From assembly GCF_014696345.1 (NCBI RefSeq), contig NZ_JACJPY010000046.1, positions 1 to 35,102 of the forward strand: DNA of 35,102 bases, read 5' to 3'. Positions 12,107-33,200 of this stretch are shown piece by piece. The notes beneath the pieces were generated by a model. The model searched no databases, had not been told where the DNA came from, and saw nothing but the letters and a program-made list of their open reading frames with translations. Source of the DNA: Pseudanabaena cinerea FACHB-1277 (GTDB taxonomy: Bacteria > Cyanobacteriota > Cyanobacteriia > Pseudanabaenales > Pseudanabaenaceae). Made by a program: the position numbers and the translations under genes. Numbering within the stretch: position 1 is the stretch's first letter; each line of letters opens with the position of its first letter.

Positions 12107-13348
12107 ATGCAATTTTGGCGATCGCGATTACGAATTTTTTTGAGCATCATGGTGGGACTGATCATGGCGATCGCCCTCCATGCTTGCCAAGGTGAAACCA
12201 ATGTTGCTAATGGTGATAGCAACAATACGCCCAGCCCTAAAACGAACCAGACTGTTGCTACGACCAAACCCTCAGAGCAGCCCCCAAAAGCGGTAAAATT
12301 GCCGCCTGCGACCAAAGCGATCGTCGATCGCGTTGCCAATGGGCTGTACAATCCGCCAAGGGGTGATGTCAGATTGGCGGTAATTAGCGATTTGAATAGT
12401 GCCTATGGCTCCACCGATTATGAACCAGAAGTGGATAAAGCGATCGCCTTACTTCCATTTTGGCAGCCCGATCTGGTGGCTTGTAGTGGCGATATGGTGG
12501 CAGGTCAATATCCATCGCTGACGGAAGAGCAGATGCAAGCGATGTGGGCTGCCTTTGATGATCATGTGGCATCTCCATTACGGAAGGCAAAACTGCCCTT
12601 TGGGGTTACAATGGGGAACCATGACGCATCCAGTGCTAAGAGCGGTTCGGGTAAGTTTTTGTTCGCTCGCGAACGGGATGTTGCGACAAAGTATTGGAAT
12701 GATCCTGCCCACGATCCTGGGGTGGAATTTGTCGATCGCTTTGAGTTTCCCTTTTATTACACGTTTAAATATAAGGATGTCTTCTTTTTGATTTGGGATG
12801 GTTCATCGGATTTGATTCCTAAAGACAAATTGGCATGGGTGGAGAAGGCATTGCAAAGCCCTGAAGCGAAGGCGGCGAAAATCAAGATTTTAATAGGACA
12901 TTTGCCGCTCTATGCGGTGACGGTGGGACGGGACAGCGCTGGGGAAGTGATGTCCAATACGGAAGAATTACGCGCCATGCTAGAGCGCAATCAGGTTCAC
13001 ACTTACATTAGCGGACACCATCACGGATATTACCCCGCGCATAAGGGTAAACTGCAATTGCTGCATATGGGCGTTCTCGGTGCGGGTCCACGCCCCTATC
13101 TTGGAGGTCGGATGCCGCCCCGTAAATCCATGACGATCTTAGATATCAACTTTGCCTCTCCCGAACTGACCACCTACACTACCTATGACATGAGAACGAT
13201 GCAGCCGATCAAATATGACGAGTTGCCACGTTCGATCAATGGACATAATGGCATGGTGTTACGGCGGGATCTGAAAATGGAAGATTTGAGTACTTCTGAG
13301 CGAACCGCTTGTGAGAAACAATTGGGAGCGAGTCTCTGTAGTGCCTAA
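12107..13348 (+). CDS. Metallophosphoesterase lipoprotein
   Basis: The protein has 413 residues. Signal peptide 9-26 ends in ALHAC, a lipobox with Cys27, and is followed by a Thr/Pro/Lys-rich linker to about 70. The calcineurin-like metallophosphatase core then shows SDLN (94-97), CSGDM (126-130), MGNHDAS (169-175), IGHLPLY (263-269) and SGHHHGY (302-308). The first motif is D-x-N instead of the usual D-x-H, a variation at one metal ligand. It would act outside the cytoplasm, on a phosphomonoester or diester not identifiable from sequence. Its 3' end overlaps by 8 bases the GTG of a decayed phosphate-transporter gene, so it was probably part of a phosphate-acquisition operon. I could not see a convincing Pho box upstream. 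Confidence 0.85.
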   Translation: MQFWRSRLRIFLSIMVGLIMAIALHACQGETNVANGDSNNTPSPKTNQTVATTKPSEQPPKAVKLPPATKAIVDRVANGLYNPPRGDVRLAVISDLNSAYGSTDYEPEVDKAIALLPFWQPDLVACSGDMVAGQYPSLTEEQMQAMWAAFDDHVASPLRKAKLPFGVTMGNHDASSAKSGSGKFLFARERDVATKYWNDPAHDPGVEFVDRFEFPFYYTFKYKDVFFLIWDGSSDLIPKDKLAWVEKALQSPEAKAAKIKILIGHLPLYAVTVGRDSAGEVMSNTEELRAMLERNQVHTYISGHHHGYYPAHKGKLQLLHMGVLGAGPRPYLGGRMPPRKSMTILDINFASPELTTYTTYDMRTMQPIKYDELPRSINGHNGMVLRRDLKMEDLSTSERTACEKQLGASLCSA

Positions 13349-14200
13349 TTTTTCTGGTGATCAGATTTCTGGTGAGCAGGTTCTTAGTCGTCCGAGGCGA
13401 TCGCTTTGGTTAGATGCCACATTTCAGAAAACCTCACAAGGTCTAGCGATCACGATCCTGTTGTTAGTGGCGGCGATCGCCTTTGAACTAGCGATCGCGG
13501 CAATTCCTGCGCTGAAGGAATTTGGCTTAGGCTTTCTCTGGACGATGGAATGGAATCCTGTTAAAAATATCTATGGGATTTTGCCACAAATTTATGGAAC
13601 TGTCGTTAGTTCATTAGTGGCGATCGCTTTGGCGATGCCCTTGGGTTGAGGCATTGCGATTTTTCTCAATGAAGATATTGCACCTAAAGCTGTTCGTGTA
13701 CCGATTTCCTTTGCGACCGAATTACTGGCGGCGATTCCTAGCGGCGTTTAGTGGGTTGTGGGGGATTTTTGTGTTGTTGCCAGCGCTGCGACCATTAATG
13801 CGCGGACTGCATCAAAACTTGGGATGGATTCCTTCTGAGATATTTTTAGGGAAGATTAAAAAATGGAACGATCCCGCGATCGCCTCTCTTAATCCCAATG
13901 TGCCCCTTCCCGATCTCCCAATCACCGTAATCCATCGCTCCGATGGCAGTGGCACAACCGCCGCATTTACTGCTCATCTCAGCGCCACTAGTCCCGAATG
14001 GAAGAACGAAGTGGGAACAGGACTGAATGTGTCATGGAAGACTGGCACTGGCATCAAGGACAATGCGGGTATCAGCGCCCAAGTCCAACAAGGGGAAGGT
14101 GTGATCGGCTGTGGAATATGCCTTTGCCAATTATCAATTTTATTGGGAATATTTCAATCTAATTTCACAAGGCAATTTAGAAAGGATGAGTTTCCATTAG
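13341..14200 (+). pseudogene. Decayed pstC-pstS fusion relic (phosphate ABC transporter)
   Basis: From a GTG at 13341 the frame encodes the start of PstC permease (LAITILLLVAAIAFELAIA; WNPVKNIYGILPQIYGTVVS; ALAMPLG). An in-frame TGA at 13647 interrupts it, then it continues (GIAIFLNEDIAPKAVRVPI). A one-base insertion near 13750 shifts the frame to GLWGIFVLLPALRPLMRG. At about 13832 PstC ends abruptly after LGWIP and PstS sequence begins: SEIFLGKIKKWNDPAIASLN, LPDLPITVIHRSDGSGTTAA, VSWKTGTG, SAQVQQGEGVIG. A two-base loss near 14112 then shifts into EYAFANYQ, and PstS similarity fades by about 14140. In normal operons pstS precedes pstC, so a rearrangement or deletion joined them. It is clearly non-functional as PstC or PstS. 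The intact phosphate system must be elsewhere in the genome. Confidence 0.88.
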
Positions 14201-14254
14201 AGATTGCTAATTTATTCGCTCATGTGTGTAAATAGGTGAAGGGAGAGACAAGAA

Positions 14255-14355
14255 GACGACGGAGGAAGTCGAAATCAATATTCTTCGGCTATATGTTGTG
14301 TCGGTTGCCCTTGCGAAAATCCTCTCAGTATCAGCACGAGCTGACTACAGTTGTA
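14255..14355 (-). repeat. Twin 101-bp element, copy A (candidate ncRNA or miniature mobile element)
   Basis: The reverse complement matches 30137-30237 over 101 bases with 11 substitutions and no gaps (about 89%). Similarity starts sharply at TACAACTGTAGT and ends at CGTC in both. Conserved blocks include CGTGCTGATACTG, GCAAGGGCAACCGAC and CAACATATAGCCGA. In this copy TCAGC-TCGT-GCTGA forms a short hairpin. No protein-coding frame is shared. It lies in the 455-base gap between the pst relic and the PEP-CTERM-like gene. Confidence 0.75.
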
Positions 14356-14545
14356 GTGGCTTCCTGATAAGATCGTCTAACAGTTCAGTTAGGGGAAACT
14401 TGATCCTGTTTATGTCTGTTGTTGCGTTAAAACTTTTTTCCTATTTTTCCATTTCACCTGTTTGCCTCCATGAGCGCTTTTTCTTTGATAACAAATAGAT
14501 ACAGGTTAAATCTTTATGACCTTAGAGCCTGTTTGAAAAGTTTTG

Positions 14546-14628
14546 ATCCGCCTAAATCCCCCTTAAAAATGGGACAGAAACTAAATCCCCCCAATCTCGC
14601 TTAAAAAGAGGAATGGGGGGATCTAGAG
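14546..14628. repeat. C-rich/G-rich interspersed repeat relic
   Basis: The segment holds AAATCCCCCTTAAAAATGGGA, and then AAATCCCCCC with its partner GGGGGGAT around an A-rich centre. It resembles the CCCC/GGGG palindromic repeats at 11577-11830. No gene is evident between 14356 and 14655. Confidence 0.45.
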
Positions 14629-14655
14629 AATTCTTAAATGGTTTCTGAATACAAG

Positions 14656-15360
14656 TTAAGCTTGAGCAGCTTTCTTGCGCTTAGCAACCAACATACCAGC
14701 AGCAGCAACTAACCCAAGAGCCATGCCTGGAACTGGCACAGGTCTAGCCGCTCTATAAGCGTGGTTGTCTGATTCAAATGCAGTTCCAGTTGAACGCAAG
14801 ATCACGGTGTCAAACTGTTTATCAACACTGTTTGCAAAGAAATCTACATATACGTTAGTGTATGCATTAGTCCAAGATGCAAACTGGGTATTTGGCAAAT
14901 TGTATTTTTCCTTAACCAAGTTAGCAATTTGCTGACCGCCAAATGTTGCTAAAGATGTAGCACCTTGCTTAAACTCAATGCTGTTGTATGTGTCGATGGA
15001 ACCCCAGTACAAACCAAAGTAGTCCACTAATCCACCGAATGAAACTACTGCTTGCTGTCCTTTATTTAAAGTAAGATATTTGGTTTCATTTTTGAAAGGA
15101 GTTGCGGACAGACCTGATACACTGCCGAAAAATAGCTGAGCAGCACCACTTGGGCTGTACTGAGCAAAACCTGTGGATGGAGCGCCCGCAACAGAGTTAA
15201 AATCAATTGTTACTGCTCCTGCGACTTGTGATTTGCAACTATCAGGAGCTAGGCAGCTTACAGAAGATGTCACATCAGTAGTAAATCCGCTAGCACTTGC
15301 CGAGCCTACGCCGACGGAAGTTGTTAAAATTCCTAGTCCAACTGCAATTAATGCTTTCAT
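14656..15360 (-). CDS. Exported protein with PEP-CTERM-like C-terminal anchor
   Basis: The protein has 234 residues. A typical signal peptide ends near ASASGF (residues 1-24). The mature domain is rich in small and aromatic residues, with two cysteines (SCLAPDSCKS) and an AVTIDFNSVAGAP strand and VSFGGLVDYFGLYWGSIDTYNSIEF motif often seen in secreted cyanobacterial PEP-CTERM proteins. The C-terminus reads PVPVPGMALG, a hydrophobic helix, then KRKK, which is the tripartite sorting signal recognised by exosortases. The motif is VPVPG instead of the common VPEP, so it is an atypical signal. Function of the main domain is unknown; extracellular matrix or surface location is likely. No exosortase gene is in this window. 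Upstream 15361-15560 shows no clear gene. Confidence 0.75.
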   Translation of the reverse strand: MKALIAVGLGILTTSVGVGSASASGFTTDVTSSVSCLAPDSCKSQVAGAVTIDFNSVAGAPSTGFAQYSPSGAAQLFFGSVSGLSATPFKNETKYLTLNKGQQAVVSFGGLVDYFGLYWGSIDTYNSIEFKQGATSLATFGGQQIANLVKEKYNLPNTQFASWTNAYTNVYVDFFANSVDKQFDTVILRSTGTAFESDNHAYRAARPVPVPGMALGLVAAAGMLVAKRKKAAQA

Positions 15361-29503: not shown

Positions 29504-30055
29504 TTAACGGACAACCACAGTTGTCCCAACCTCAGCCCATTGATAGAGCCATGCTGCATGGTCGGGGGCAACATTAGTACAACCGCGACTCACTGGGATG
29601 CCAAAACTGCGATGCCAATATGCCCCATGTATCGCATAGTTGCCACTGTAGTACATCACATGGGGAACGTCGGGGATGTTGTAGTCATCGCCGCGCATTC
29701 TGGCGACTGGATATTTAGTTTGAATCTTGAAAATGCCCGTGGGTGTGGGGTTGTTGCTTTTGCCTGTGGACACAATTACGGCATAGACCAACTTACTGCC
29801 CTGCCACGCCAATAATCTCTGGCTACGCAGCCTTACCTCAATCCAGCGCTGTCCCGATCGCCGCAATCTTTCGATATCGCGATTGGTGGGTGATCGCCGC
29901 GATGATGTCTGTGCGATCGCTGCATCCAAATTTAATAAATTAGCCATGCTACTGATAGCTGCAAGGCTGACACCAAATAAATTAAAACCAAATGAATTAA
30001 ATAAAAACACAGCCGCTAAGCAATTAGTAGCTATTCCTTGTCGATGCTTATCCAT
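29504..30055 (-). CDS. Exported L,D-transpeptidase (YkuD domain)
   Basis: This 183-residue protein has an N-terminal hydrophobic signal (about 10-35, possibly cleaved near AIAQT at 46-50). The YkuD domain covers about 70-183: RWIEVRLRSQRLLAWQG, VSTGKSNNPTPTGIFKI, YAIHGAYWHRSFGIPVSRGC. The catalytic residues are seen as His143 (IHG) and Cys159 in SRGCTN. These enzymes make 3-3 cross-links or attach proteins to peptidoglycan in the periplasm. There is no LysM or other binding domain, so it is a minimal version. Upstream, on the opposite strand, is the 101-bp twin element copy B. Confidence 0.92.
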   Translation of the reverse strand: MDKHRQGIATNCLAAVFLFNSFGFNLFGVSLAAISSMANLLNLDAAIAQTSSRRSPTNRDIERLRRSGQRWIEVRLRSQRLLAWQGSKLVYAVIVSTGKSNNPTPTGIFKIQTKYPVARMRGDDYNIPDVPHVMYYSGNYAIHGAYWHRSFGIPVSRGCTNVAPDHAAWLYQWAEVGTTVVVR

Positions 30056-30136
30056 TACTTGATCATTTCAGCTTATTGAGGCATTAATGTAGTACAAAAG
30101 ATAGTAAAAAATTTCGCTTGTGTGGGTAAATATCTT

Positions 30137-30237
30137 TACAACTGTAGTCTGATCGTGCTGATACTGCGGAGATTTTTGCAAGGGCAACCGACGCAACATA
30201 TAGCCGATGAATATTGATTTTGACTTCCGCCGCCGTC
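30137..30237 (+). repeat. Twin 101-bp element, copy B (candidate ncRNA or miniature mobile element)
   Basis: This copy matches the reverse complement of 14255-14355, ungapped, with 11 differences. It lies in the 210-base gap between the L,D-transpeptidase start and the 3' end of the 1322-residue kinase gene. Similarity to copy A begins and ends abruptly. ATGAGCGA follows directly after the element. No open frame longer than 17 codons is evident in it. Confidence 0.75.
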
Positions 30238-30265
30238 ATGAGCGAGAAAAAGAGCGCTAGGATGC

Positions 30266-33200
30266 TTAAATCAACAACTTTTGAATTGTTCTAGCTAGTT
30301 CCCGTAACTTGACGGGTTTGCTGAGATAGCCAGTTGCACCTGCGGCAAGGCATAGATCAACATCGTTTGGCATCGCTAGAGCCGTAAGCGCAATGATCGG
30401 CGTACTGGCAAAGGCGGGAAGTTGGCGGATTTTTTGAGTCGCTTCTAATCCATCCATGATCGGCATTTGGATGTCCATCAAAATTAAATCAGGCTGTAAC
30501 GATCTCAAGATATTGAGGGCTTCTTGTCCATTGTGGGCAAGGATGATTTCGTAACCCTTGGCGATCAGATAACTGGAGAGGGTTATGATATTGGCTTCGC
30601 TATCTTCCACTAACAAAATTATGAAGGTGCGAGAATTTTGCGGGTCAGCCTGACTATTGACAGTGGCGGTAATGTTTTGATGGGGCGTTAATGCAGCAGA
30701 AGTAGGGGTGAAGTGAGGGATATCAATCATAAAGCAACTGCCGACCCCTAATTCGCTAGCTACGTTAACCCGACCACCATGCATTTCGACAATCCGCTTG
30801 ACGAGGGGCAGCCCTAAGCCCGTGCCTTGATATTGGCGGTTGAGGGCGCTATCAATTTGGAAGAATGGTTGAAATAGTTTGCTGATGTTTTCGTGGGAGA
30901 TGCCAATACCTGTATCCTTGATGGCGATTCGCACATAACCTTGAATGTCGGTTTTATCAAGATTATCAGCTATGTCAACGGGCAGTAAGGTTACTTCTAG
31001 GCTAATTGTGCCTTCTTCTGGAGTAAATTTTACGGCGTTACTTAGTAGGTTGATCAGTGCTTGACGAATGCGCCGTTCATCAATACTTAATTCAGGAAGG
31101 TTATTTGGGAATTGGGTGTGCAGTTGAATCCGCCTTTTGAGGGCTTGCTGCTTGATAAAAGCGAGACTAGATTGGCAGAGTGGCTCGATCTCCACATTAC
31201 TATATTCCAGTTCGAGTTGTCCCGATTCGATTTTGGCTACATCTAGAATGTCATTGATGAGATCTAGTAAATGGGAGCCACTGCGCTCGACTGTTTGCAA
31301 TGCCTTGATTTGAGGTTCGGTCACATGACCAAAAATGCCCTCTTGCAGCCCTTCGGTCATGCCGAGGATGGCATTGAGAGGGGTACGCAATTCATGGCTC
31401 ATATTTGCCAAAAATTCATCTTTGAGGCGGGTGGCCCGCGCCAGTTCTTCGTTGGAGATGGCGAGCTGCTCGTTGCGTTCGGTGAGTTGTTGTTGTGCTT
31501 TTTTTCGATCGCCTAATTCCTGTTGTAGCTGCTCATAGAGACTTGCCTGTTGAATGGCGATCGCTAGTTGGATGGCAATTTGCTGGGTGAGGTTAATCTC
31601 AAATCTTTGCCAAGTCCTTGGGCGATCGCATTGATGGACACATAACAGTCCCCATAGTTTTTCACCATAAAACAAAGGAATGATCAGGTTAGCGCGGATC
31701 TGAAATTGTGTCAAAACCTCAAGATGGCAAGGCTTTAACCCATGGTTGTAAATATCATCCATTGCTGAAAATCGCCCCTCTAGATATAAGGGTGAATAGT
31801 CTTCGCCAAAGCAATGGTCATGGACGGGCTGGGCCAATACCGATCGCAAACCCGCAATAGCTGCCTCAGCAACAAACTCGCCATCATCACAGCCAGAGTC
31901 GATATTAAATCTAAAAATACCAACGCGATCGGCATTGAGCAGGTGGCGAATCTCTTGGCAAGCAGTATCAAAAATGGTTTGCAGGTTGAGCGAAGTGCGA
32001 ATGCGTTGAGTAATTTCCCGTAATAATATTTCTTGCTGTGCCTGTTGCGCGATGATTTGTTCAGAATGCTTGCGATCGCTAATATCGCGGCAAACACAGA
32101 TCAATAGCCCATCATCCGTCAGGGACAGAGATAGCTCTTCGTCAAAGGTGGAGCCATCTTTACGGATCGCGATCATTTCCCCAGCCCAAGATCGGTCTCT
32201 TTGCAGCGCTGGGAAAATCTCATATTCAAATCGCTCTAGCTGCGCTGGCGAATATGAAATATGCCAACTCTTGCTCAACAATTCATCCACTTCGGCATAG
32301 CCAAACATCTTGGCATGGGAGCGGTTTAGGTAAATATATTGATCCGCTTTCTTGATGGCAATGCCATCAATGGCAGTCTCAATCGTTGCTAGTTTTTGCT
32401 GAAGTTCTTTTTCGGTGCGTTTGAGATCGCTAATGTCAACCACCACACAAACGCATTCTGTCTCTGACACCATGGCGAGACTGCTCAATACTGACACAGG
32501 GTAGCCATCTTTGTGAAAGTACACCTTTTCCCAAGGTTCAATCACTCCATTCAATTTGACATGGGCGATCGCGTGCATATCCATAGACAAATATTCGGGG
32601 GCAGTCATCCTTGCCCAGTCCAGTTGACCAAGCTGGAGTTCATCGCGGCTATAACCCACGAGATTTAAGAAACAATCATTTGCGTCAGTAATTTCCCCAT
32701 TTAAGTTGACAAATAGCATCCCCACCACATTGGCATCAAATATGCCCCGAAATCTCGCTTCACTAGCTTTTAAGGCTAATTCTGTCCGCTTAGAATCAGT
32801 TTGATCACGGAGGATAATCATAGCCTCATCACTGCCGATCGGCACAATCCGCACCTCTTCAAAAACTAGGCGATCGTGCTTGTCATACAACTGATGTTCA
32901 TAGACCTGCAAATTCCCTGTGATTAGGGCTTGATCGATGGCTTCAAGCTGTCGTTGGTACAAATCTGGCGGTAATATTTCCGAAATATTTTCATGAATTT
33001 GGTGAAACTTATCTCGATATTCGCCCGTGTTGATATATTCTAAACATTCGCCCTGACGATTTACCCGCAACAACAAATCAGGTAAAGCATCGATCATGGC
33101 GCGAACTTTGGCATTGCTAGTCCGCAACTCCTGCGTGCGTTTGGCAATCTTCGCTTCTAAGGATTGATTAAGCTCAAGGAGTGCCAGTTCTGTTTTTTGG

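Follow-up and report, generated by a model that had tools for sequence, protein, structure and literature searches.

The 101-bp sequence that occurs twice in the window (the whole stretch of DNA analysed, 35,102 nucleotides of Pseudanabaena cinerea FACHB-1277) is, on comparison of the sequences, almost certainly what two decayed elements have in common, both of them non-autonomous, MITE-like derivatives of an IS1595-family insertion sequence (IS) resident in the genome. A 1018-bp IS lost 589 bp of its transposase gene at a deletion junction (junction 1) carried by both copies. In the history proposed from there on, the deleted element would have been moved in trans by the transposase of full-length copies. 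The second copy would have come about through intramolecular (replicative) transposition that inverted a 15.6-kb segment, or the present arrangement through recombination of two copies after separate insertions; either inversion route would exchange the 8-bp target duplications. Decay of both copies would have followed, in which copy 2 was shortened by the loss of a further two pieces. The explanation calls for no RNA or protein function, and the element is most likely a defunct non-autonomous one.

The repeat and the two elements that contain it

Alignment bears out two ungapped 101-base copies with 11 differences, 14255-14355 on the plus strand and 30137-30237 on the minus strand, and with them the inverted orientation described in the original prediction. 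The pair is 89% identical with E = 5.7e-32 in a search of its own genome (4,772,465 bases in 179 contigs), which excludes chance. Both stretches are intergenic, as had been said, and overlap no listed ORF of at least 80 aa; copy 1 in its full extent does, at its left end (14217-14235), reach into the end part of ORF 13654-14235, the broken remnant of a pstS gene. Real as they are, the sharp boundaries that had been noticed are not the termini of the elements, which are larger units (Table 1), and the description of the flanks as unrelated is only partly right because both copies extend past the 101 bp into the end sequences of the same IS. As the alignment has it, the 101 bp is the overlap of copies 1 and 2 that remains after two further deletions in copy 2.

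Table 1. Coordinates of the two elements, their parts, and the adjoining 8-mers (IS positions in L032 numbering)
Feature	Position	Strand	Composition or basis
Copy 1, 260-bp internally deleted IS1595-family element	14217..14476	+	IS 1-63, 653-743, 915-1018 of L032
Copy 1 IS left end, IS 1-63; transposase C-terminus on opposite strand	14217..14279	+	92% to own-genome IS left end
101-bp stretch, overlap of both copies, spans junction 1	14255..14355	+	alignment
Deletion junction 1, IS 64-652 missing, common to both copies	14280..14280	.	alignment
Copy 1 internal piece, IS 653-743; N-terminal transposase part on opposite strand	14281..14371	+	87% to L032
Copy 1 IS right end, IS 915-1018	14373..14476	+	90% to L032, 93% to own-genome IS right end
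8-mer CTTTTTCT abutting copy 1 right end	14477..14484	+	identical to 8-mer at copy 2 left end
Copy 2, 130-bp further-deleted element	30115..30244	-	first 8 bp of IS, IS 39-63, 653-727, about 18-22 bp of right end
Copy 2 internal piece, IS 653-727	30137..30211	-	87% to L032
8-mer CTTTTTCT (AGAAAAAG on +) abutting copy 2 left end	30245..30252	-	flank alignment

Both copies are collinear with the 1018-bp IS at locus L032, copy 1 in three blocks (90, 87, and 90% identity, in order along the IS) and copy 2 in two blocks plus short ends. Junction 1 (63/653) is common to both, which makes them descendants of a single deleted element; the remaining deletions of copy 2 can postdate this junction. The ends of copy 1 are the parent's inverted repeats and agree with each other at 19 of 24 positions. 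Against the parent, copy 2 has its left end cut to 8 bp and matches at 16 of 18 positions on the right. Its two ends agree poorly with each other (10/24; 6/8 at the very end), which counts against the explanation preferred here. On the other strand, the core reads YNCSQLVLILRGFSQGQPTQHIAEEY up to a stop in copy 1 and YNCSLIVLILRRFLQGQPTQHIADEY up to a stop in copy 2 vs YNCSQIVLILRGFLQGQTTQHIAEE in the full-length IS at locus L033. The opposite strand of both copies holds a transposase frame broken by deletions and stops, with no intact ORF.

The original prediction had taken certain conserved blocks to be under special constraint and had guessed at an RNA. The block in question, GCAAGGGCAACCGAC, is old transposase coding DNA on the opposite strand and corresponds to the segment LQGQ(T/P)TQHIA of the protein. 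The claim of constraint does not hold up: the 11 differences fall 5/2/4 on codon positions 1/2/3 of the old transposase frame (3/2/3 before its stop), and this spread, with no excess at the third position, points to no constraint at the protein level. A structured small RNA, whether an ORF-less HEARO/omega RNA or another, would fit the intergenic position and the existence of two similar copies. This reading is nonetheless extremely improbable, since the whole 101 bp except a single base at the deletion junction aligns with transposase-gene sequence, the old frame is recognisable in the core, and the differences between the copies show no unusual constraint block by codon position. The Rfam search that had been asked for along with the HEARO/omega guess gave the guess no support. 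At gathering level, the whole window has zero matches; at E up to 5, the region 14100-14500 has two weak sRNA matches only (E 2.7 and 4.1), both outside 14255-14355, and the region 30030-30330 has zero. Neither copy matches the Rfam covariance model of HEARO/omega RNA, and HEARO/omega RNA and the other Rfam families were rejected for want of a supporting match.

The neighbourhood of copy 1 has further features. The stretch 13311-14130 is a remnant of a phosphate-transport (pst) operon, whose genes we take to encode a phosphoesterase, a permease, and PstS. In G010, the order is the phosphoesterase gene, then a 641-aa permease gene, then a 386-aa pstS. About 2 kb is missing from the remnant between 13834 and 13835 (2.0-2.3 kb relative to G010, G022, and G007), and the pstS similarity ends at 14130 against all three, 86 bases before copy 1. 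On the other side, at 14548-14640, lie stretches of intergenic DNA rich in C and in G (AAATCCCCC... and the complementary sequence) that by eye resemble a separate hairpin-forming repeat.

The parent insertion sequence and the reach of the deleted form

The parent IS is 1018 bp long in both L032 and L033, which belong to other genomes of Pseudanabaena. L033 has an intact transposase frame of 314 aa; that of L032 is broken. The L033 protein is an IS1595-family transposase by its match to PF12762 (E = 9e-16, 58.7 bits, cut-off 27), and it also matches NF033547 (90.3 bits, cut-off 75). The full-length parent thus encodes an IS1595-type transposase, an assignment that rests on the L033 protein, the parent copies of the own genome being seen only as ends that are not assembled through. 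The window copies have the same ends and the same sequence in all main blocks as this IS1595-family IS (ISXO2-like transposase domain, PF12762 / NF033547). Unlike it, they retain only a minor part of the transposase gene and are unable to move by themselves.

When 14240-14370 is used as a query against the own genome, 14 matches near contig ends are found besides the two copies, all to query positions 3-40, which is a single IS terminus. These 14 contig ends carry the common terminus CGCTCATGTGGGTAAATAGG..., and the DNA outside it differs among them. In those of them that were translated, the opposite strand of this left terminus encodes the C-terminus of a transposase. The other (right) terminus is found at 13 contig ends, internal fragments of the IS lie on contigs C79, C171, and C117, and the inverted repeats of the parent match at 25 of 26 positions. 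The contig-end matches are a repeated insertion sequence that the draft assembly does not bridge.

The deleted form has a far narrower distribution than its parts. With copy 2 as the query, matches are found in 9 of 58 genomes (own included), all of one genus, and at an E threshold of 0.001, parts of the element are found in 16 of 26 genus genomes (own included). Outside the own genome, the listed matches to copy 1 fall in three blocks that break, within a few bases, at its two deletion junctions, and among the matches listed for the 25 other genus genomes, none crosses junction 1. On the basis of these block-wise matches, the deleted form is known here only from its own genome, where the search finds no copy beyond the two. 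A pattern laid across junction 1 also has 0 matches in genome contigs (exact matches only, the own genome possibly excluded). A wider family with the same junction was rejected on these two results, and a plasmid-borne repeat was rejected because the plasmid collection holds no match.

Several observations concern the full-length IS. Transposase relatives (57-70% identity over the best segment) occur at five places (L162, L163, L174, L175, and L176) on long contigs of one Anaerolineales MAG, possibly a case of transfer between phyla. Two contig ends of the own genome (L014 on C16 and L064 on C14) belong to a single IS copy flanked on either side by the 8-mer AATAAAAT; by eye, this copy sits in the middle of a palindrome resembling a terminator hairpin. 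At two other contig ends (L009 and L062), the IS flanks share 13 bases (AAAATCAAAAATT), seen by eye and not forming an aligned 8-bp repeat; these may reflect a longer duplication or a pre-existing repeat.

Flanks of the copies and a possible 15.6-kb inversion

The flanks of the IS ends in the own genome (14 left and 13 right) show how the IS treats its target. For nine of the 13 right ends, the adjoining 8-mer is exactly that of a left end, although in the collapsed assembly such a match is not assignable to one copy. The other 173 left-right pairs include 9 with agreement at 6 positions and none with agreement at 7 or 8. The exact matches indicate that the IS makes 8-bp target duplications. 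When the flanks are compared as reverse complements, the 91 left-left pairs include a single near match (L009/L013, at most 1 mismatch) and the 78 right-right pairs include none; this comparison has no bearing on the inversion test used here.

Neither relic retains a target duplication of its own. In element orientation, copy 1 is flanked by AATTTATT on the left and CTTTTTCT on the right, and copy 2 by CTTTTTCT on the left and AAATTTTT on the right; in each case the two flanks agree at 4 of 8 positions. Compared crosswise, the right flank of copy 1 and the left flank of copy 2 are identical at 8 of 8 positions, exactly at the element ends. The other crosswise pair agrees at only 6 of 8, a level also reached by 9 of the 173 control pairs. 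Random pairs of 8-mers from the window are identical in 104 of 2,000,000 draws, and CTTTTTCT has four occurrences in the window on both strands together, two of which abut the elements exactly. The 8/8 crosswise pair is suggestive, though no proof, of an inversion, brought about either by recombination or by intramolecular transposition. From these flanks, it is reasonably probable that the pair inverted the DNA between the copies by one of these two routes, a segment that would comprise 15,638 bases.

An exchanged target pair is the footprint of intramolecular replicative transposition described for IS26 in an excerpt of the literature (PMC12502706), and, by reasoning, recombination between two inverted copies would leave the same exchanged pair. 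As in the IS26-type inversion, to the extent that the excerpt describes it (PMC12502706), the window has two inverted copies with the same 8-mer beside one end of each, the two 8-mers being reverse complements on one strand. Unlike the IS26 case as described there (PMC12502706), the IS belongs to another family, an exact match is seen in just one of the two flank pairs where it would be expected, and no ancestral order has been found. As a tentative reading, replicative transposition of a non-autonomous IS1595-family derivative within the chromosome may have inverted the 15.6 kb and left the 8-bp target as the exchanged pair. By reasoning, the same flank pattern would result if the two copies had inserted separately, each making an 8-bp duplication of its own, and homologous recombination between them in their inverted orientation had then swapped the outer flanks; for this they have at least 101 bp in common, at present 89% identical. 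This route is doubtful in its turn, because the substrate is short and two nearby insertions are required, yet no other copy of the deleted form has been found in the genome.

The two copies may instead be independent insertions of one MITE-like element with no inversion at all, the shared 8-mer being due to chance. The second flank pair, at only 6/8, speaks for this account, and the gene order of relatives lends an inversion no support. It sits poorly with own flanks that agree at only 4/8 in each copy while one crosswise pair reaches 8/8, and with control pairs of which 0 of 173 reach 7 or 8, and is rather unlikely. Gene order was compared by searching for the four flanking genes in 26 genus genomes, own included. 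The gene at 14656-15360 has a match in 8 of the 26, a close one only in G010 (72%). In that genome, each of the four genes has its best match on a separate contig. Across 15 regions compared by tblastn (rows above 40% identity), 12 of them also by blastn, no adjacency of the flanking genes is seen in either order. Synteny around the breakpoints is lost, and gene order therefore neither supports nor refutes the inversion.

Classification and significance

Prokaryotic MITEs are characterised, in an excerpt of one paper (PMC3852290), as internally deleted IS derivatives. The window element resembles them, insofar as that excerpt describes them (PMC3852290), in that copy 1 has the inverted repeats of the parent IS, and the element has an internal deletion, no intact ORF, and presumably a history of movement in trans. 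It differs from them in that two copies were found, both decayed and lacking target duplications of their own. A MITE, which the original prediction had offered as another option, is thus right as to the inverted repeats of copy 1, the internal deletion of an autonomous IS, and the absence of an intact ORF, and falls short as to several copies with target duplications. Given two copies and no own target duplications, the term MITE-like derivative is used here and not MITE family. Two copies of the deleted form are also fewer than usual for a MITE family, which counts against the preferred explanation; as the IS is collapsed in the draft assembly, hidden copies are possible. Movement in trans by the transposase of the parent is suggested only by the presence of junction 1 in two places.

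The element derives from a known IS family and is an unexceptional, MITE-like relic. In the titles and abstract openings of the few papers found on IS1595, MITEs, and cyanobacteria, it is not reported, and its absence from print is not claimed. A candidate unknown RNA is struck off the list, and a trap is exposed: internally deleted relics of an IS that is collapsed in a draft assembly resemble unexplained intergenic repeats. If replicative transposition of the derivative is the true course of events, the exchanged 8-mers would be footprint evidence that transposases of the IS1595 family can take a copy-in (replicative) route when they act in trans on a 260-bp derivative. If the inversion holds, the pair would give a modest hint as to the way IS1595-family elements move and remodel chromosomes.
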